IMG/VR virus record: IMGVR_UViG_3300028802_000032 | Coordinates: 1-42,845 of that record | Source: a virus | Reading direction: 5' to 3' (one strand) | DNA: 42,845 nucleotides | Shown here: positions 4,031 through 41,670 of the stretch, one piece after another | Layout of the letters: each line of letters opens with the position of its first letter | Position numbering within the stretch: the stretch's first letter is position 1 | Program-made: the position numbers and the translations under genes | The notes under the pieces: generated by a model | Told to the model about the DNA's origin: nothing | Database searches by the model: none | Seen by the model: the letters and a program-made list of their open reading frames with translations, nothing else

Positions 4031-4123
4031 ACTTTCGCTTCAGGGGGCGAAAACCCCGTGGTGACGAGATCTCGGGTGGGGTGGCACCTACCCCCGTCTG
4101 GACGACCTCGCGCCTCACCAGCG

Positions 4124-4143
4124 GAAACCTAGAGCTTTCTAGG
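4124..4143. promoter_or_regulatory. Operator-like site (GAAACCTAGA copy within a palindrome)
   Basis: GAAACCTAGA at 4124-4133 is the same 10-mer that lies between -35 and -10 of the two minus-strand promoters near 38170 and 40985. Here it forms half of a perfect inverted repeat, CCTAGA (4128-4133) and TCTAGG (4138-4143), separated by GCTT. It probably binds the same DNA-binding protein as the other two, perhaps the HTH protein encoded at 41093. Confidence 0.5.
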
Positions 4144-4302
4144 GCCATGTCCGTTCGTGGGATTATCAACAACTTACGGGTGGTGAGAATCTTTTCACAG
4201 TGTGCCATTCTGAGACACGCGTGGCACACTTCATGTTAGGTGCTGGAAGTTGTTGCGAACGCGCCACTTCGCGGTAAGGGTCAAGTGCCCTAACGTCCAA
4301 AT

Positions 4303-4689
4303 ATGCGAATATGCCAGTGTTTCGTGCCCGGTCGCCCGGTCGGTCAGGGGTCGATGCGGCACCTCGGGCGGGGGCGGATGACGCACGACAACGCGAAGCT
4401 GCGGGCGTGGCGGCTGGCGGTGGGCTGGGCGGTCAGGGCCGCGCTGCCCGGCGAGCCGACCGACGCCGAGGTCTGGATGAAGCTACACTTCGTCGTCCAA
4501 CCCCGGCGGCAGGGCGATGCGCCCGACCTCGACAAGCTGGTGCGCGCGGTGCTCGACGCCCTAACGGGCATCGCGTATCTGGACGATAAGCAGGTCGTCG
4601 CCATCAACGCCCGGCGCACGCTGCTCGGGCCTGACGCGCTCGCCAGCGACCGCGAGGGCGTCACCATCGAACTGGAGCCAACGGCATGA
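4303..4689 (+). CDS. rusA: RusA-family Holliday junction resolvase
   Basis: This 128-residue protein matches RusA in length and motifs. An N-terminal FVPGRPVGQG strand-turn is followed by the catalytic block P-D75-L-D77-K-L-V-R, then ALTGIAYLDDKQVV with Asp94 and Asp95. In RusA three aspartates bind magnesium and cut four-way junctions as a dimer. In a phage this resolves recombination or replication branches before packaging. It starts the operon after the 343-base regulatory region. The ATG at 4303 has no good ribosome site but keeps the conserved first strand. It overlaps the next gene by four bases (ATGA). Confidence 0.88.
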   Translation: MRICQCFVPGRPVGQGSMRHLGRGRMTHDNAKLRAWRLAVGWAVRAALPGEPTDAEVWMKLHFVVQPRRQGDAPDLDKLVRAVLDALTGIAYLDDKQVVAINARRTLLGPDALASDREGVTIELEPTA

Positions 4690-9199: not shown

Positions 9200-9376
9200 G
9201 TGCGCGTCTACCACGTCGTTCTCGCCGACGGCACGGAGCGCGACGTGACCGCGCACGAAGTGCTCATCCACAACGGGTCGCTCGTCTTCAGGAATGAGGC
9301 GGGCGACGACATCCTGCTCTACGCCGACACCGCGTGGCTTGCCTGCGAGGTGTCTCGACTCGATGACAAAGGCTAA
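9200..9376 (+). CDS. Small hypothetical protein
   Basis: This 58-residue protein starts at a GTG two bases after the previous stop. It alternates beta strands (MRVYHVVLADGTERDV, then VLIHNGSLVFRN) and has an ILLYADTAWLACEV segment, suggesting a compact beta domain. It is too short to have been listed by length-limited ORF calling, but its third codon positions are G/C like its neighbours. Function is unknown. Confidence 0.65.
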   Translation: MRVYHVVLADGTERDVTAHEVLIHNGSLVFRNEAGDDILLYADTAWLACEVSRLDDKG

Positions 9377-9386
9377 GGTGCTCCCC

Positions 9387-10052
9387 ATGAAGCTGCGTCG
9401 CCTCGTCGGTCTAGTGCTCGCCCTCTCGCTGATCGCGTGCAAGGTGGGCGCGACGACCATCACGTCGTTCGGCAACATCACGCCGAACCAGTTCGTCTCG
9501 ACCGACAACGGCAACGGCACCACGACGCTGTCGGTGACCGCCGACGTGAACATCACGCAGATCTTCATGGGGCCGCTGGACCCCGACGCGCTGCTGACGT
9601 TCACGGCGACGAGCGTGGGCGATGCGACGACGTTCGGGCCGCTGGTGACGCAGAACTTTGTCGGCAGCTTCACGCTGACGAATCAGGCGGGGACGTTCAA
9701 CTACCTGAGCGGCAGCTTCGGTGGGGCGCTGCAGATCGGCACGGTCGGCGGGACTAACTCGCTGTTCACGTCGAACAACGCGCTGCTCGCGCCGCTGACG
9801 CTGTCGAGCGATCTGTCGGCGCTGACCTCGCCGGAGAGCTTCTCGCTGTCGCTGGCGAACTTGTCGCCTGCGTTCAGCGTGGACACCTCGGGCGGGCACA
9901 CGACCATCGGCAGCTTCACGGCGTCGTTCACGGGCGACGCGGACGCGACGATCCCGTCGGCGGTGCCGGAACCGGCGTCGCTGGTGCTGCTGGGCACGGG
10001 CCTCGTCGGCATGGCAGGCGGGCTGCGGCGGAAGCTGTTCCGGCGGGCGTAA
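9387..10052 (+). CDS. Secreted PEP-CTERM protein encoded by the phage
   Basis: This 221-residue protein has an N-terminal signal (MKLRRL plus a hydrophobic core to about residue 20). Next comes a Thr/Ser/Asn/Gly-rich beta-strand body without cysteines. At the C-terminus is a textbook PEP-CTERM tripartite signal: VPEPAS at 193-198, a hydrophobic helix with LLGTGLVG, then a basic tail RRKLFRRA. In bacteria such proteins are exported, then cut and sorted by an exosortase, usually in exopolysaccharide-producing Gram-negatives. No exosortase is in this window, so the host would supply it. LIAC near residue 19 could also serve as a lipobox. It is coupled to the next gene by TAATG. AAGGTG precedes the ATG. 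Confidence 0.85.
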   Translation: MKLRRLVGLVLALSLIACKVGATTITSFGNITPNQFVSTDNGNGTTTLSVTADVNITQIFMGPLDPDALLTFTATSVGDATTFGPLVTQNFVGSFTLTNQAGTFNYLSGSFGGALQIGTVGGTNSLFTSNNALLAPLTLSSDLSALTSPESFSLSLANLSPAFSVDTSGGHTTIGSFTASFTGDADATIPSAVPEPASLVLLGTGLVGMAGGLRRKLFRRA

Positions 10053-10468: not shown

Positions 10469-12727
10469 GTGCCTGCCCCGCCGCCCACCGTCTACCCGCG
10501 TCCGAACCGCCGCAAGCTGACGCCGCCGAAGTTGGGCACGTCGCCGTTCGACGTAAAGCTCACCGCCGAGCAGAAGACCGAACTGGTGCAGATGCTCGCC
10601 GAGGAGATCGACCGGGCGCTCGCCGCGCGAGGGCCGATCATCAACCCCGGCGGCGACCTCGACTACTGGCACTGGCTCTACAAGCAGGGCAAGCGGAACG
10701 TGAAAGACCTGCCGTTCCCCGGCGCTGCCGACCTCTCGACGTGGATCATCGCGGAGAAGGTCGATGCGATGCGGGCGCGGTTCTGCAAGACGATCTTTGT
10801 CGAGCCGGTGTGGGTCGTGGACGGCTGGGGCGCAGCCGCGCCGCGAGCGTCGCTGGTCGAAGAGTTCCACCAGTGGAAGCAGGAAGAGGAGCGGCTGCAG
10901 GGGTGGCTGCAGCGCACGCTGCAGTTGGCGCTGATCGAGGGCACCGGGGTGCTGGAGTGCTCCGAGAAGGCCGACATGATCAAGCGCCGCAAGGTCCGCA
11001 CGCTGCTGCCCGAGACGACACCGGGCGCGAACGAGGGCGACCCGAACCTGATCGTGGCCGACGACCGAGGCGTCGTCGCGCCCGCGCTCGACGCGCAGGG
11101 CGCGGTGATGGACGCGGAGAACCCCGACGAGACGGGCGCGGTCACTGCGCCCGTGGACGAGTTCGTGCCGGTGCGGCGCGGCCCGAGCTACCGCAACGTG
11201 TCGCTCAGGGACTTCCTGATCCTCCCGGCGCACGCGCAGGACGACAGCGAGGTGTGGTGCTACGCGAAGCGGTTCTGGCGGCGGCTGAAGGAACTGAAGA
11301 GCCGCGCGAAGAGCGGCCTCTACGACAAGGACGCCGTCGAGGGGCTGAGTGCCACCAGCGATCGTACGCGGGCCGAACTGCCGCAGAGCGTGCAGGCCGC
11401 AGGCATCGACGTGGCCGCGCAGTCGAGCGAGACGACCATCGAAAAGGAACTGTGGGAACTGCACGTCCTGCTCGACCTCGACAACGACGGCAGCGAGGAG
11501 TGGTACATCATCACGCTCTCGGCGATCCACCGGCAGATCCTGCGCGTGCAACTGGACGACCTCGGGATGCCGCGCTACCTGCTCTTCCGCCCCGCGCCCA
11601 ACCCGCTGAACGTCTACGGCGACAGCCACGTCGATAAGCTCGCGTCCATCGGCGAAGAGCACATGGGCACGCGCAACGCCATCGCCGACCGCAGCAACCT
11701 CGTCAACAACGCGCCGATCAAGCGCCTGCGGAACAGCGGCTGGGACATGGACGAGGAGCCGTGGGGCGTCGGCGCGGTCATCACCGTGCAGGATATGCAG
11801 GACGTGCAGCCGGTGACGTTGCCCGACGTGCCCGGCTCGATGGCGGGGCGCGAGCAGGCGGTCATCGACGCCGCCGAGCGGCTGTCGGGGCTGAACGATG
11901 TGACGCTCGGCAGCGCCCCGCAGGAGAGCCGCACGCTCGGCGAAGTGCAGATGGTCACCGAGCAGAGCTTCGTCCGCATCGAAGAGCAGGTCCGCAACCT
12001 GCAGGAGACGATGGAGGACTTGTTCAAGATCCGCCACGAACTGTGGCGGCGTGCCGCCGACGAGTCGCCGCTGGAACCGAGCGAGCGGTTCATGCAGGCG
12101 CTGCAGTTCCGGCAGATCGACATGGCCGAGGGCGGCATCGACGGGCAGGCGCTGTCGGGGACGTTCCACGGCAAGCCGCACGGCAGCGTCGAGAGCGCGG
12201 ACAAGTCGAAGCAGCGGTCCAACTACAACGGGTTCATGCAGGTCATGGGCGGGTTCGCGCAAATGAACCCGACGCTGCAGCAGGTCTTCGCGTCGCCCGA
12301 CGTGATCATCCCGCTGTTTGAGCAGGCGCTCTCGCTCTACGATTCGCCGAACAAGGGCCAGATGATGCGCTCGCTGCGGCAGTGGCAAGTGCAGACCGAG
12401 CAGCAGGCGCAGATGGCCGCGCAGCAGCCGCCGCCGGGACCGCCCGGCGCACAGCCCGGCGCTCCACCGCCTCCCGGCGGGCCTCCAGCGGGCGCTGGGG
12501 CACCCCCACCGCCGGGAGGGCCGGGTGCCCCGCCGCCGGGACCGCCGCCGCAAGGCGGGCCTCCTGCGCCGCCGCAGGGGCCACCGCCGCCGATGATGGG
12601 CGGGATGCCGCCGCCGCCACCGGACCAGCCCGACGTGGTGCCGGGGATGGGCCAGATGCCGCAAGTGCCGCCTGATCTGCTGGCGCAGATGTCGCTGGCG
12701 ATGTCCGCGCCGGGCGGGGTGCAGTAG
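10469..12727 (+). CDS. Portal protein (P22/podovirus-like) with Pro-rich tail
   Basis: This 752-residue protein lies just after the terminase region and has the length and pattern of podovirus portals. There is an N-terminal helical region ending PFPGAADLS, a wing with LIEGTGVLEC, a long alternating beta region (LLDLDNDGSEEWYIITL) and long C-terminal helices (RIEEQVRNLQETMEDLFKIR). Residues about 645-735 are Pro/Gly/Gln low-complexity. Twelve copies would form the ring through which DNA enters and leaves the capsid. The start is a GTG four bases after the preceding stop. Portals often have disordered C-termini, but such a Pro-rich tract is unusual. Confidence 0.85.
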   Translation: MPAPPPTVYPRPNRRKLTPPKLGTSPFDVKLTAEQKTELVQMLAEEIDRALAARGPIINPGGDLDYWHWLYKQGKRNVKDLPFPGAADLSTWIIAEKVDAMRARFCKTIFVEPVWVVDGWGAAAPRASLVEEFHQWKQEEERLQGWLQRTLQLALIEGTGVLECSEKADMIKRRKVRTLLPETTPGANEGDPNLIVADDRGVVAPALDAQGAVMDAENPDETGAVTAPVDEFVPVRRGPSYRNVSLRDFLILPAHAQDDSEVWCYAKRFWRRLKELKSRAKSGLYDKDAVEGLSATSDRTRAELPQSVQAAGIDVAAQSSETTIEKELWELHVLLDLDNDGSEEWYIITLSAIHRQILRVQLDDLGMPRYLLFRPAPNPLNVYGDSHVDKLASIGEEHMGTRNAIADRSNLVNNAPIKRLRNSGWDMDEEPWGVGAVITVQDMQDVQPVTLPDVPGSMAGREQAVIDAAERLSGLNDVTLGSAPQESRTLGEVQMVTEQSFVRIEEQVRNLQETMEDLFKIRHELWRRAADESPLEPSERFMQALQFRQIDMAEGGIDGQALSGTFHGKPHGSVESADKSKQRSNYNGFMQVMGGFAQMNPTLQQVFASPDVIIPLFEQALSLYDSPNKGQMMRSLRQWQVQTEQQAQMAAQQPPPGPPGAQPGAPPPPGGPPAGAGAPPPPGGPGAPPPGPPPQGGPPAPPQGPPPPMMGGMPPPPPDQPDVVPGMGQMPQVPPDLLAQMSLAMSAPGGVQ

Positions 12728-14346: not shown

Positions 14347-15015
14347 ATGTCCCGAGTGAAGTCGCGGCTGGAGATCGAAACCGAGAAGCTGCAGAAGGGC
14401 GTGAAGGCGCGGCTGAAGGAAACCGTCGCGTCGCAGCGCAAGGTCGCCGACGAAGATCTGGTCGAGGCGTTCAAGGACTTCGCGAACATCGAAGTCGCCG
14501 GGCGGCGGTTGACGGATCCGAACCTGCCCAACGCGCTGCCGATCCGGCTGAAGGACGAGCCGGAGGAGCACGAAGACCCGCGCGGCATCCGGCGCAAGTG
14601 GTACCTCCGCTGGATCAATCTCGCGATGCCGAACCGGCACCACATCGCGCAGCAGTCGCTCGGCTACGCGCCCGTGCGCTGGGACGAACTGCAGACCGCT
14701 GACGTGATCAGCAACCCGTCGAAGACCGACGAGTTCGTGCGGCGCAGCGAGGGCGGCAAGGAAGCCCTGATGAAGATGCCGATGGCGCTCTACCGGCGCA
14801 TCAAGGCGAAGCAGCATGAGCGGCACGCGCGGACGATGACGGGCCGTGCGTTGAAAGAGTCGGCCATCGCCGCCGCTGTCGCGCGGGGGTTGTCCCCGGA
14901 GGACACCGAGGCCGTCGGAGAGGTGGTCGGCTCGATCAAGGTCGGGCGTGATCGTCTCGTCTCGCCCGACGCCAACCCGCTCGACGCGGCGGCGAACGAA
15001 GACCCCCAGCCCTAG
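14347..15015 (+). CDS. Conserved phage structural-region protein
   Basis: This 222-residue protein begins with a charged coiled coil (VKSRLEIETEKLQKGVKARLKE). It continues with a WYLRWINLAMPN segment and GYAPVRWDEL, and GGKEALMKMPMALYRRIKAKQ near residue 140. Such a W-x-N ... GYxPV ... LMKMP order resembles small conserved proteins encoded next to capsid genes in other phages. Function there is unknown. The ATG at 14347 follows the previous stop by three bases without a clear ribosome site. Confidence 0.65.
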   Translation: MSRVKSRLEIETEKLQKGVKARLKETVASQRKVADEDLVEAFKDFANIEVAGRRLTDPNLPNALPIRLKDEPEEHEDPRGIRRKWYLRWINLAMPNRHHIAQQSLGYAPVRWDELQTADVISNPSKTDEFVRRSEGGKEALMKMPMALYRRIKAKQHERHARTMTGRALKESAIAAAVARGLSPEDTEAVGEVVGSIKVGRDRLVSPDANPLDAAANEDPQP

Positions 15016-37773: not shown

Positions 37774-38109
37774 TTAGATGGCGAGGAAGCGACGCGTGCC
37801 GCGTGCGTGCTGCTCGGCGGCGAGCGCGGCAGCGGCCTTCACGAAGAACCCGCCCTCCACGAACTTGTCGCCTTGGTAGATGGCGTACTGGCGGATGCCG
37901 CCGATGGCCGCGCCGGGGCGCACGACGAACGCCTGCAGGTCGTGGTCCGCGAGGAAGAGGCGCGTGCTCCACGACTCGGTCTGGCCGGTCGTGAGGTTCC
38001 GCGCTTCGACGCGCTCGTTGACGCGCCCGGCGCTGCGGTCGAGGGAGACGGGGCGCACGAAGTGGCCCGTCTCACGGTTGCGGTAGTTGCTGTTCAGCTT
38101 GATGGTCAT
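37774..38109 (-). CDS. Hypothetical protein, first gene after promoter P1
   Basis: This 111-residue beta-rich protein starts MTIKLNSNYRNRETGHFVRP after CACTGGAGA. It contains RLFLADHDLQAFVVRPGAAI and an Ala-rich helical C-terminus. It is the first gene downstream of the minus-strand promoter at 38159-38188. Its function is unknown. Confidence 0.7.
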   Translation of the reverse strand: MTIKLNSNYRNRETGHFVRPVSLDRSAGRVNERVEARNLTTGQTESWSTRLFLADHDLQAFVVRPGAAIGGIRQYAIYQGDKFVEGGFFVKAAAALAAEQHARGTRRFLAI

Positions 38110-38158
38110 CGTCGTCTCCAGTGGGCGGGGCCGGTCACCACGACCGACCCACCCAACA

Positions 38159-38188
38159 AGTATGTGCCGAAACCTAGACGGCTGTCAA
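38159..38188 (-). promoter_or_regulatory. Minus-strand promoter P1 with GAAACCTAGA operator
   Basis: On the minus strand TTGACA (38188-38183) and CATACT (38164-38159) are separated by 18 bases. Within the spacer lies TCTAGGTTTC (plus strand GAAACCTAGA at 38169-38178), identical to the element in promoter P2 and at 4124. A protein bound there would block RNA polymerase. The promoter drives the genes from 38109 downward. Confidence 0.65.
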
Positions 38189-38193
38189 ACCCC

Positions 38194-39141
38194 CTATATT
38201 CCCTCGAAAAGTGCGTTGACCTTGTCGCGCAGCGCCTGACGGCTGGACCGCAGGGCGGCGTTCTGGCTGCTCAGGCCGACCAGTTGCTCGCGGGCCAGCC
38301 CGAGGACCGCCACGGCGTCGTCCAGCATCCGCAGCAGTTCGGTGAGCGCGGTGTCCACCGTGACCTCGGTCGTCGCCCCAGCGGCCACCAGTGCGGCCAC
38401 AGAGGGCGTCTGGGCCGGAGCCGTCGGCAGCGACGCCGCGATGCGCTCCAGTTCGACCCGTGCCCCGGCGCTGACGGTCAGGTGCGCCACCTTCCCCGCG
38501 TCGAGCGGCTTGGACAGCAGGTCGGGCACGTCGGGCGGCACCGGGGTGTGCTTCAGGCGCTCGTCTTCCAGCGCCCGCTCGATGCCCCGGTGGACGACGC
38601 TGACGGTGCTCTGGACCGACGGCAGCGTCGTGGTGAAGCCGTGCGTGTAGGCCGACCGCAGCAGGCGCTCGGCCTCGGCCTTCTGGTGGCCGTGGCCGCT
38701 GCCGTGCTGGTAGTGGTGCTCGATGAAGCTGAACAGCGACCCCTGCCACTTCTCGCTCGGGGCGTCGGGGTGCCGGGGCGTCTCCAGTGTCTTTGGTTGC
38801 AGCGCCGCGAGCAGTTCGCGGACGCGCCCGGTGCCGAGCAGCGCCGGGTGGACGAACACCGACGTGCCCTTCGCGAGGTTGACGATGCGCTGGTGCTGGC
38901 GGTGGCCGATCCACTTGAAGAACAACACCACGCCGACGCCGGTCGGGAAGCTCGCCGCCTTCTCCATTTCCGGCCCCTCCGAGGCCCACTGGAGAATCTG
39001 CGGGTGGGTGGACATCCACTGCGGCAGGTTGCCGCTCTTGGTGCCCACGATCAGGACGCGGCGCTGCTGGGTCAGGCAGGCGCTCACGGCGTTGGCGAGT
39101 AGCTCGTCGGGGTGCAGCAGGTCACGAAGTGGCGTGGACAT
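38194..39141 (-). CDS. Hypothetical protein with C-terminal coiled coil
   Basis: This 315-residue protein starts MSTPLRDLLHPDELL after GACTGGAGA. The first 120 residues form an alpha/beta domain (RRVLIVGTKSGNLPQWM, VGVVLFFKWIGHRQHQRIVNL) that looks Rossmann-like and is followed by HPALLGTGRVRELL. The middle is His- and Glu-rich and the last 60 residues are a coiled coil (LGLAREQLVGLSSQNAALRS). No catalytic signature was recognised. P1 begins six bases after its stop. Confidence 0.7.
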   Translation of the reverse strand: MSTPLRDLLHPDELLANAVSACLTQQRRVLIVGTKSGNLPQWMSTHPQILQWASEGPEMEKAASFPTGVGVVLFFKWIGHRQHQRIVNLAKGTSVFVHPALLGTGRVRELLAALQPKTLETPRHPDAPSEKWQGSLFSFIEHHYQHGSGHGHQKAEAERLLRSAYTHGFTTTLPSVQSTVSVVHRGIERALEDERLKHTPVPPDVPDLLSKPLDAGKVAHLTVSAGARVELERIAASLPTAPAQTPSVAALVAAGATTEVTVDTALTELLRMLDDAVAVLGLAREQLVGLSSQNAALRSSRQALRDKVNALFEGI

Positions 39142-39379
39142 CGGTGTCTCCAGTCACGGTGCAGGGGGTGAAGTCGCCCGCCGTCAGGAACTGATCCTTC
39201 GGGCAGGGGCGAACCTTGACGACAGCGAGGTCGCCGCCATACCGCTGGTCGAGCGGGTGGAAGGCGACGTGGTGCGCGTGGTCGAGCGCGAGGCTTTTGT
39301 TGAGGGCGTAGAAGTCGAGGCGCACGTAGCGCCCCGCCCCCGTGCGGAAGATCCCGGTGTAGGTGCGGTCGGCTCTCAC
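39122..39379 (-). CDS. Hypothetical protein
   Basis: This 85-residue protein starts at a GTG overlapping the upstream stop, with AAGGAGA upstream. The beginning YTGIFRTGAGRYVRLDFYAL is beta-rich and the rest has RPCPKDQFLTAGDF. It overlaps the next gene by 20 bases. Its function is unknown. Confidence 0.65.
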   Translation of the reverse strand: MRADRTYTGIFRTGAGRYVRLDFYALNKSLALDHAHHVAFHPLDQRYGGDLAVVKVRPCPKDQFLTAGDFTPCTVTGDTDVHATS

Positions 39380-39870
39380 AGTGCGTCTCCTTCCGGCAGG
39401 GCGTTGGCGTTCGTCATGCCCCGGTGCAGCGCCAGCCGCGCTGCCTGCAGCCGGGCGTCGATGGTGGCGCGGTCTGGCAGCGGGGTCCCCGAGACGACGC
39501 TCACGGCGGCGCTGGGGGGCGTAGGACGGGTCGGGGGCACCGGGCGGGCCACCTTGTCGCCGCCGGGCAGGTTCGTGCTCTGGCGGGCCGCAGGAGCCGC
39601 CGCAGGGGCCGTCTGGGCGACGACCGGCTGCGCGAGGGCGACCGCCAACTGGTGGCGCACGGCGTGCCAGCGGGCGCGGACGGCGTCGGCCACGTCGGGC
39701 GCGGTCACCGCGACGAGGCTGAAGTGGAGCGCCGACGCCTGCTGCTCGCGGTCGAGCAGGCCGACGGGGACGCCCTCGGTGACGAGGTAGCAGAAGGCGC
39801 GGAGGCCGAACGCCTCGGCGGTTTCGCCGGGCTGCTGGCGGGCGAGGACGGGGATGCGCGGGAAGGTCAT
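39376..39870 (-). CDS. Hypothetical protein with Pro/Ala linker
   Basis: This 164-residue protein starts MTFPRIPVLA after CACTGGAGA. Residues about 15-75 are a helical domain (AEAFGLRAFCYLVTEGVPVG), then an Ala/Pro-rich linker of about 40 residues, then a helical tail (ATIDARLQAARLALHRGM). It is not recognised. It follows the DUF932 gene after a UUCG hairpin. Confidence 0.65.
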   Translation of the reverse strand: MTFPRIPVLARQQPGETAEAFGLRAFCYLVTEGVPVGLLDREQQASALHFSLVAVTAPDVADAVRARWHAVRHQLAVALAQPVVAQTAPAAAPAARQSTNLPGGDKVARPVPPTRPTPPSAAVSVVSGTPLPDRATIDARLQAARLALHRGMTNANALPEGDAL

Positions 39871-39888
39871 GGTCGTCTCCAGTGAAGG

Positions 39889-39910
39889 GCCGGGGGCCGA
39901 AGCCCCCGGC
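39889..39910 (-). terminator. UUCG-loop hairpin after the DUF932 gene
   Basis: GCCGGGGGC and GCCCCCGGC form a perfect 9-bp stem around TTCG on the minus strand. The surroundings (ribosome motif, AGTGAAGGG, stem) match the 36118-36141 cassette almost base for base. It may reduce readthrough or protect the 3' end of the DUF932 message. Confidence 0.55.
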
Positions 39911-39922
39911 GGGTGAGGGGTG

Positions 39923-40921
39923 TTACGCGGCCACCAACTGGCGGGCCTTGACGAGCGCGAGCGCCTTCACGTCGGCGTTGCCGCCGAAGAGGGCCGACAC
40001 GTTCGCGTTGTCGCGCCCGGCGACCGAGGACGCCTCGGCAGGACGGACGTGGTCGAAGTACTCGGTGACCGCGTTGTAGACGCTCCACGCGTTCGGGTCG
40101 CCGCCCGTCAGCGCCGTCGCCTTGTCCACGCCGACGCCCGAGAAGACCAGCTTGCTGACCGTCGCGCGGCGCGACTTCAGCGTGTCGCTGACGACGCCCT
40201 TGTCGCTCGGGAAGACCGACTCGATGTAGGCGATGATCTGCTTCTCGTTCAGGCGCTTCGCGGCCAACTGCGCGAAGGTGTCGCCCGTGGCGATCAGCGT
40301 CTTCGTGAGGTTCGTGAAGAGGCCACGCGCCTGCTTCACGCGGTCGTTCGCCGACGCGGTGTGGCGGATCTTCGCGAAGGTCGCCTTGTCGCTCGACGCC
40401 GCCAGCGCCAGCGTGTTCTGGCAGACGACGCGGATGGCCGTCGCCGAGCCGTTGACGCCCGTCGAGCCGTCGTGGCCCCACTTCAGGAGCGCGTAGCCGT
40501 TGACGGTGTCGCCCGCGCCGGTCACGTCCGTGTCGCCGCCCTGCAGCCGCGCGAGCGCCCAGCAGACCTCGCCGTCGCCCAGTGCGCCCGCGACCTCGAT
40601 GGACGCGCCGTACTCGCTGATGGCGATGTCGAAGATCGACGCGGCGTCGCGGTTCTGGACGGCGGTGTAGGCGGGGCCGACGATGGCAAGCTCGCGGTTG
40701 TCGGTGACGCGGCGCACGACTTGGCCCTTGTGCAGGCGCGAGCCGTCCGCGTTGAAGATCGGCTCGACGGCGACGTCCCAGTCGAGGTGGGCGGCGGCGA
40801 GGAACTGCTCGACCGAGTAGCGCACGTCGCCGCGCAGGCGCGTGCCGAGGCCGTGCCACGGGGTGGACCCGATGTAAGCGATGGCGTTCTGACCGTTGAC
40901 GGAAGCGATGTTGTGAGCCAT
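39923..40921 (-). CDS. DUF932 family (TIGR03299-like) phage/plasmid protein
   Basis: This 332-residue protein begins MAHNIASVNG and has ST-PWHGLGT near residue 24. This N-terminal PWHGLGT signature and the overall length identify the DUF932/TIGR03299 group of phage and plasmid proteins. Later motifs agree: GYALLKWGHDGSTG, an ATAIRVVCQNTLALA strand-helix, and RHTASANDRVKQAR. The biochemical role of this family is not known. It is the first gene of the minus-strand operon under promoter P2, so it is probably among the earliest proteins made. The ATG follows CACTGGAGA. Confidence 0.82.
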   Translation of the reverse strand: MAHNIASVNGQNAIAYIGSTPWHGLGTRLRGDVRYSVEQFLAAAHLDWDVAVEPIFNADGSRLHKGQVVRRVTDNRELAIVGPAYTAVQNRDAASIFDIAISEYGASIEVAGALGDGEVCWALARLQGGDTDVTGAGDTVNGYALLKWGHDGSTGVNGSATAIRVVCQNTLALAASSDKATFAKIRHTASANDRVKQARGLFTNLTKTLIATGDTFAQLAAKRLNEKQIIAYIESVFPSDKGVVSDTLKSRRATVSKLVFSGVGVDKATALTGGDPNAWSVYNAVTEYFDHVRPAEASSVAGRDNANVSALFGGNADVKALALVKARQLVAA

Positions 40922-40971
40922 GTGCGTTCTCTCCAGTGATGGGGTCGGCTTGCGTGCCGCCCGACCAGAAG

Positions 40972-41002
40972 AGTATACGTCGAAACCTAGACAAGCTGTC
41001 AA
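40972..41002 (-). promoter_or_regulatory. Minus-strand promoter P2 with GAAACCTAGA operator
   Basis: On the minus strand TTGACA (41002-40997) is followed, after 19 bases, by TATACT (40977-40972); reading GTATAC gives 18. The spacer holds TCTAGGTTTC (plus strand GAAACCTAGA at 40982-40991), as in P1. It drives the DUF932 gene and probably the whole cluster. A short inverted repeat GCACT (41028-41032) and AGTGC (41039-41043) lies upstream, towards the divergent HTH gene. Confidence 0.65.
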
Positions 41003-41092
41003 CCCCCCTGAAACACTGGGCTTTCGAGCACTTTCCTGAGTGCCCGGTCGATACTTGGTGCAGCCCAGCCGAGACGTGCGATCCTGAGCGGC

Positions 41093-41362
41093 ATGACGAG
41101 AGACGACCTCATCGCGGCGCTGGCGGCAGCGCCCAAGCGGCGGCGGCTGTCGCTGCTGCTCAAGTTGGTCCCCCAGCCTGCGGCGCTCATCGCGAAGCGG
41201 GCGGGCATCAGCCGGGCGACGCTCTACCGCGAGACGACGGTGTCGCTCGTCACGAAGCTGCGGATCGCGCGGGCTGTCCGCGTGCCCGCGTCGGTGATCT
41301 GGCCGGAACTGCAGACCCTCGCGTGGGAACTGCTCTACGGCTTTCGAGGAGACAAGCGATGA
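41093..41362 (+). CDS. Small HTH transcriptional regulator (Cro/XRE-like)
   Basis: This 89-residue protein has a helix-turn-helix at about 30-60: PAALIAKRAGISRATLYR, then KLRIARAVRVPASVIWPE. The A-x-x-A-G-I-S-x-x-T-x-Y/W-R core with a following hydrophobic helix ending in VPASVIWPE is typical of small Cro/XRE phage regulators. It diverges from the P2-driven operon across 170 bases. It is a natural candidate to bind the GAAACCTAGA sites. No integrase is present, so it may control lytic timing rather than lysogeny. The ribosome site is weak. Confidence 0.72.
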   Translation: MTRDDLIAALAAAPKRRRLSLLLKLVPQPAALIAKRAGISRATLYRETTVSLVTKLRIARAVRVPASVIWPELQTLAWELLYGFRGDKR

Positions 41363-41670
41363 CGAAGAAGACCGAGACGAAGAACGAGAACCTCACACTG
41401 GAGCGCCAGCGGGTCGTGAACGCCCTGATCAGCGCCGCGCAGTTGCGGCTGGACGAGGTGCCGGGCGACTTCGCGGTGCGGACGTTCGACACGGTGCGCT
41501 ACGCGCAGGCCGACAAGGTCAGCGAGGACGTGGTCGTGGCGCTGGGCATCAGCGCCGAGATCGTGCGGCTGGCGCTGGAGAGCGCGGTGCAGCAGGGGCT
41601 GCTGGAGGTGCCGGTGTCGCTGCCGGTCAGCGAGCACCCGATCACGTTCGTCAGGCCGGGGACGCTGTGA
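41359..41670 (+). CDS. Hypothetical protein, possible winged-helix
   Basis: This 103-residue protein has a strong ribosome site (GAGGAGACAAGCG-ATG) and overlaps the HTH gene by four bases. A Lys/Glu/Thr-rich N-terminus is followed by helices (VVNALISAAQLRLDEVP) and a segment DVVVALGISAEIVRLALESAVQQGLLEV. That last part looks like helices 2-3 and the wing of a winged-helix domain. It may be a DNA-binding partner of the HTH protein. Confidence 0.6.
   Translation: MTKKTETKNENLTLERQRVVNALISAAQLRLDEVPGDFAVRTFDTVRYAQADKVSEDVVVALGISAEIVRLALESAVQQGLLEVPVSLPVSEHPITFVRPGTL

Follow-up and report, generated by a model that had tools for sequence, protein, structure and literature searches.

The promoters P1 and P2 of an uncultivated bacterial virus, both on the minus strand, carry the same short element in the spacer between their -35 and -10 hexamers, and we found this element in the spacers of 29 promoters from 11 records of the virus and its relatives. 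The stretch of DNA analysed here (the window) is 42,845 bases long and identical to the virus record IMGVR_UViG_3300028802_000032 (G000). Sequence comparison gives good support to a single regulon sharing one operator. Our preferred reading, to which we assign a probability of roughly 0.5, is that of an operator regulon in which the small helix-turn-helix (HTH) protein encoded at 41093-41362 acts as a Cro/CI-type repressor.

P1 and P2 were the sole sites in the window with a score of at least 10 out of 12 in a scan for sigma70-type promoters (Table 1). The original prediction had described them as near-identical promoters, each with TTGACA, a TATACT-like -10 and a common block in the spacer. 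The positions of the hexamers and the presence of TCTAGGTTTCG in both spacers bear this out, and the -35 and the operator arm are indeed the same; what sets them apart is the length of the spacer (18 versus 19 bp) and the -10 hexamer (CATACT versus TATACT). The recurrence of the 10-mer at 4124-4133 was correct as well, being an exact copy of TCTAGGTTTC, and the proposed scan of the whole record for the element returned these same three places. With at most one mismatch, GAAACCTAGA has four matches in the window, three of them exact, against a shuffle mean of 0.41 and none of 100 shuffles reaching four; the fourth match, at 14377, has one mismatch and lies inside a long open reading frame (ORF). 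For exact copies, a first-order Markov estimate gives 0.007 expected on both strands together, compared with the three observed. That the repeats are functionless products of chance is a notion with practically no probability left. A search of viral contigs with the pattern TTGACA-N2..6-TCTAGGTTTC did return 44 chance-like stretches, which with few exceptions differ in base composition and lack a -10 box, but the same element stands at the same two places in the relatives, and this comparison, with its 29 promoters in total, already refutes chance. A chance origin of the repeats in the window was thus rejected on the shuffle and Markov counts together with the conservation.

Relatives were gathered by scanning viral contigs for the HTH (12 loci) and for DUF932 (25 loci), and with alignments of ERF (best 80 of 205 loci) and of the portal protein (37 loci); many of these loci overlap, so that one record may appear more than once. 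In relatives whose DUF932 protein is 52-88% identical, P2 precedes the DUF932 gene or one gene inserted ahead of it, and diverges from the HTH gene wherever the latter is present. P1 begins directly after the stop codon of gene 38194-39141 in the window and follows the homologue of that gene in all eight loci compared, starting at most 65 bp from its end in the seven loci with a full-length match. The 29 promoters come from the window (2), G002 (2), G012 (3), G013 (2), G009 (2), G020 (1), G011 (3), G014 (3), G016 (5), G015 (5) and G017 (1), with G013 P3, similar to G012 P3, left out; the same operator is therefore seen at one to five promoters per record. Within the eight main genomes (window, G002, G011, G012, G013, G014, G015 and G016) the element is present in 21 of 24 strong promoters, one of the three lacking it being the own promoter of a ribbon-helix-helix (RHH)-like ORF in G013, and over all 14 scanned records in 23 of the 30 strong promoters listed. 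The element also has matches outside promoters: when genomes were scanned for it with a model that left out one genome at a time, many of the top matches were promoters, but in G015 and G017 matches elsewhere score better.

The underlying site would be a dyad made of the arms AAACCYAGC and GCTRGGTTT. Its axis lies 4-13 bp past the -35 hexamer among the 29 promoters, whose spacers measure 17-19 bp. The strong arm lies toward the -10 in nine promoters (axis 4-6) and toward the -35 in nine (axis 10-13), both arms are good in ten (axis 6-10; for example the palindromes ACCCAGCGCTGGGT and CACACCCAGCGCTGGGTGTG), and one promoter, from G017, is weak on both arms. Presence, conservation and free position and orientation of the element are direct results of these computations, as is the likeness of sites within a genome described below. 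Because the spacer is only 17-19 bp long, a -35 or -10 hexamer may often take up part of one arm and leave the other strong; the weak arm is the one that would run into a hexamer, which explains the half-site in the window. Arms also resemble each other within a genome: the similarity of the P2 arm to arms of its own genome is 0.937, compared with 0.826 to those of other genomes (p=0.00045, nine genomes, 20,000 shuffles), and the same test on five lineages gives an exact p of 0.017, with two arms in the wrong register (G014_P3 and G016_P2) retained. In the window, all three sites begin with TCTAGG, and those of close relatives with GCTAGG. The resemblance between sites of one genome points to one trans-acting reader per phage or per host.

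The distance from the third site to the rusA gene downstream is 179 bp both in the window and in G012 and about 200 bp in G002; in G018 it is 235 bp, with the site in the opposite orientation. In these four records the best site upstream of rusA ranks within the top 2-4% when compared with random 400-mers drawn from that genome; by the same measure it is marginal in G011 (8-12%) and G014 (7%), and no such site was found in G009, G015, G016 and G017. Judged by these ranks, only a subclade retains the rusA site. A position weight matrix built without the promoters of the window placed its top match in the window at position 4123 (14.3, the next being 9.2). The perfect palindrome claimed at 4124 (CCTAGA-N4-TCTAGG) is present, but the window has 38 inverted repeats with 6-bp arms and a 4-nt loop, this one included, and the relatives do not conserve its second arm; therefore, we rejected it as a functional unit, and it is the half-site that carries the information there. 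The compact regulon of the original prediction is thus strongly supported by the relatives as far as the operator common to two minus-strand promoters is concerned, and its link to rusA is supported in four records. The third site adjoins a non-coding block conserved among the window, the G012 group, G002 and G018. This block (4144-4270) is near-identical in the window and G003/G004/G005/G012, is partly retained in G002/G018, and contains the inverted repeat GTGTGCCA...TGGCACAC as well as TTATCAACA, which is one base off the DnaA-box consensus; it is possibly an origin or a late promoter.

Food for a mechanism is provided by the position of the element. P1 and P2 would be strong promoters of the sigma70 type that serve a block of minus-strand genes, probably early ones, and the shared CTAGGTTTC element in their spacers would serve as operator, such that a bound regulator covers the DNA used by RNA polymerase and shuts both promoters together. 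In the subclade of the window, the third copy would tie the replication and recombination region to the same regulator. The binder presumably acts in trans, with the XRE-like HTH protein as leading candidate; that it represses, that the genes are early and which protein binds are what we infer here. The HTH gene diverges from P2, as had been noted before and as the ORF at 41093-41362 (plus strand) agrees with, and it does so in eight of the ten genomes with that region. Its structural model (predicted local distance difference test, pLDDT, 84) has C.AhdI, SinR, lambda CI and 434 Cro as top Foldseek matches, with probabilities of about 1 and E values of 0.018 or worse. No listed Pfam model reaches its gathering score with the HTH of the window (PF02796, 20.6 versus 23.8), and XRE-type models match only one or two of nine HTH members (HTH_31, best E 0.00025; HTH_3, best E 0.0017). 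On position and predicted fold, this protein is a plausible binder of the operator, at about even odds.

Several observations weigh against the HTH repressor. The gene is absent from G013 and G014, whose promoters keep the element, and its place in G013 is taken by an RHH-like ORF together with an HNH-like ORF. The recognition region of the G009 protein is only 29-35% identical to those of G002, G012 and the window, compared with 73-76% in the rest of the protein, and despite this change the operator arms are 0-1 base apart; in G015 and G017 the recognition regions are 71% identical and the operators differ. Indeed, covariation of the HTH recognition region with the operator was not found. With the matrix mentioned above, P1 scores only 8.5, level with background, and P2 falls outside the nine best matches listed, because the arm in the window begins with TCTAGG and not GCTAGG. 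Additionally, among the window and its relatives a tyrosine integrase (PF00589) was found in none of eight records and a serine recombinase (PF00239) in none of nine, a result that possibly incomplete records and prophages of the plasmid type may qualify; a repressor would thus have no evident use. An operator that outlives both the swap of its regulator (HTH, RHH-like ORF or none) and the change of recognition helix, being read by a host regulator or by the repressor of a co-resident relative, is improbable in our view, with a chance worth keeping in mind. If the reader of the sites were not the HTH encoded next to them, the early promoters of these phages would share a "listening" site.

The same regulon could have another reader. 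A host regulator may be the binder, in which case the phages would place a host-read site in their promoters and the switch would sense the state of the host. Neither candidate protein occurs in all element-bearing genomes (the HTH is missing in two, the product of 41359-41670 in one), and no other obvious DNA-binding gene common to G013, G014 and the other element-bearing genomes is evident among the starts of the ORF sequences, for which no library scan was made. The dyad with its central CG (AGC-GCT), which is similar to operators of the LacI family, also counts in favour of a host protein. Against it, G014 and G015, which share a metagenome number in their record names, carry the variants GCTGGGT and GTTGGGT, each uniform within its genome, which fits a phage-encoded binder unless the hosts differ; we consider a host regulator unlikely. 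Slightly more unlikely still is the product of 41359-41670 as binder, alone or with the HTH. This protein is present in nine of the ten genomes with the P2 region, including the HTH-less G013 and G014 (in G014 its gene is the first divergent one), and its model has winged-helix-like matches to CRP, MarR, IclR and Zur. However, the fold matches are weak (best E 0.059) and include non-DNA-binding proteins, the sequence varies strongly (22-67% identity to the protein of the window), and G011 lacks it while keeping three operator promoters.

The element could also belong to the promoter itself, as a contact for RNA polymerase or for a sigma factor of the phage, as its occurrence in most strong promoters of these phages might suggest. 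Yet its orientation flips, its place varies over a range of 9 bp although spacers measure 17-19 bp, some forms are palindromic, and the copy at 4124 lies outside a promoter. Such behaviour excludes a fixed RNA polymerase element and fits an operator whose regulator blocks the promoter; we rejected a fixed polymerase contact on the sliding and flipping of the site, and hold a promoter part to be very unlikely. Even less credit is due to activation of the MerR type, in which the spacer is too long and a protein bound there brings the -35 and -10 back into line. The P2 spacers of the window, G002, G012 and G013 are 19 bp long, as this would have it, but spacers of 17 and 18 bp hold the same element, which slides and is not centred, and a MerR domain was not found among the window proteins in library scans covering part of the gene set. 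MerR-like activation was rejected on spacer length (17-19 bp, against 19-20 expected) and on the off-centre, sliding operator.

Two accessory features accompany the operator promoters. Upstream of the -35, about 24 to 7 bases before it, an operator-like element is suggested by 14 of the 29 upstream regions exceeding the 95th percentile of random 45-mers from the window, nearly all of them with the element at the same place; against within-sequence shuffles, only 8 of 29 do so, and we regard this element as suggestive. In the window it corresponds to O2. Most leaders open with a short G+C-rich hairpin (mean z -1.86, n=29, 20 of 29 below -1; control mean z 0.09, standard deviation 0.99), found behind most operator promoters of the relatives, often with GTTGG or GCTGG in the loop, and followed, by eye, by a purine-rich ribosome-binding stretch. 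In the window, CACTGGAGA or a sequence close to it stands ahead of several minus-strand start codons within 37774-40921, as a leader that recurs at translation starts. Separately, at the divergent locus of G013 and its look-alikes (L067, 5462-5632 and upstream; also L109, L110 and L113), a 57-amino-acid RHH-like ORF replaces the HTH; it has its own strong promoter and an HNH-like ORF alongside, and P2 keeps its operator.

Table 1. Features of the window discussed in the text, with window coordinates; functions of sites and proteins are predicted.
Feature	Position	Strand	Remarks
Promoter P2	40972..41002	-	TTGACA (41002-40997), 19-bp spacer, TATACT (40977-40972); ahead of DUF932 gene; conserved in relatives
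Promoter P1	38159..38188	-	TTGACA (38188-38183), 18-bp spacer, CATACT (38164-38159); same place in relatives
Operator arm in P2 spacer	40981..40991	-	TCTAGGTTTCG
Operator arm in P1 spacer	38168..38178	-	TCTAGGTTTCG
Third operator arm	4124..4133	-	TCTAGGTTTC; 179 bp upstream of rusA; outside any sigma70-like promoter
Upstream element O2, operator-like	41010..41025	-	GAAAGCCCAGTGTTTC; between P2 and HTH gene
Leader hairpin, start of P2 transcript	40943..40966	-	
Leader hairpin, start of P1 transcript	38123..38154	-	
Small HTH protein	41093..41362	+	89 amino acids; fold predicted to be of the XRE/lambda-CI/Cro type; gene diverges from P2; favoured candidate for the regulator
Second candidate regulator	41359..41670	+	103 amino acids; predicted winged-helix-like fold (weak matches)
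DUF932 gene	39923..40921	-	First gene downstream of P2
Remaining P2 operon genes	38194..39870	-	39376-39870, 39122-39379, 38194-39141; unassigned function
Genes downstream of P1	34642..38109	-	37774-38109 onward; small proteins, unassigned function
RusA-like Holliday junction resolvase gene	4303..4689	+	Downstream of third site

The window has a G+C content of 69.8% and encodes a tailed phage, with terminase, portal, head proteins, ERF, RusA and exonuclease-like proteins; the ERF gene ends 4 bases short of the end of the window. Among named phages, the HTH had no match at an E value of 0.1 or better, and the best terminase identity was about 26%. A search for the host in genome_contigs with the HTH and portal alignments returned no match, using two short patterns each and hence at low sensitivity. 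Elsewhere in the window, the phage genome codes at 9294-10052 (plus strand) for a protein whose C-terminus carries a PEP-CTERM sorting motif (PF07589), and the portal protein (10469-12727, plus strand) ends in a long proline/glycine-rich tail.

Taken as a group, these uncultivated phages offer a testable cis-regulatory code, one operator being common to most of their strong promoters. The positions, orientations and variants that occur naturally allow a regulator site to be told from a promoter element with no experiment needed. Moreover, the records without the HTH bear on whether operators outlive their repressor. Operator regulons are a known kind of phage control, and this one is new and uncharacterised. 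Literature searches on early-promoter inverted repeats, on DUF932/ERF phages and on phi29/Spo0A found nothing, and those on phiC31 only unrelated papers.

In the operator region of lambda, CI and Cro act on divergent promoters. The arrangement here is comparable in that a small CI/Cro-like HTH gene diverges from a strong promoter with a dyad operator in its spacer, and in that the interval between the two genes holds another element similar to the operator; in contrast to lambda, the operator is also found in further promoters and upstream of rusA, no integrase was found, and binding is predicted. Arc of phage P22 is an RHH protein that controls one promoter region at Pant, where the operator likewise lies in the spacer between -35 and -10, and the L067/G013 locus has an RHH-like ORF at the place of the HTH. 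In phiC31, a repressor and conserved inverted repeats at early promoters, both characterised, form a system whose arrangement resembles ours, in that several early promoters each have a copy of one inverted repeat. The mycobacteriophages L5 and D29 have a repressor with an operator and stoperators, that is, many sites per genome, which vary between phages and match within one (PMC5712189, PMC6550527, PMC9283540). L5 stoperators are described as lacking symmetry and as lying for the most part away from promoters and in a single orientation (PMC5712189, PMC6550527, PMC9283540), whereas the sites here lie mainly in promoter spacers, in both orientations or as palindromes, and do not qualify as stoperators of the L5 type; the candidate protein, at 89 amino acids, is also far smaller. 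Finally, D29 is reported to have lost part of its repressor gene by deletion and to retain L5-like sites (PMC5712189), a precedent for G013 and G014.

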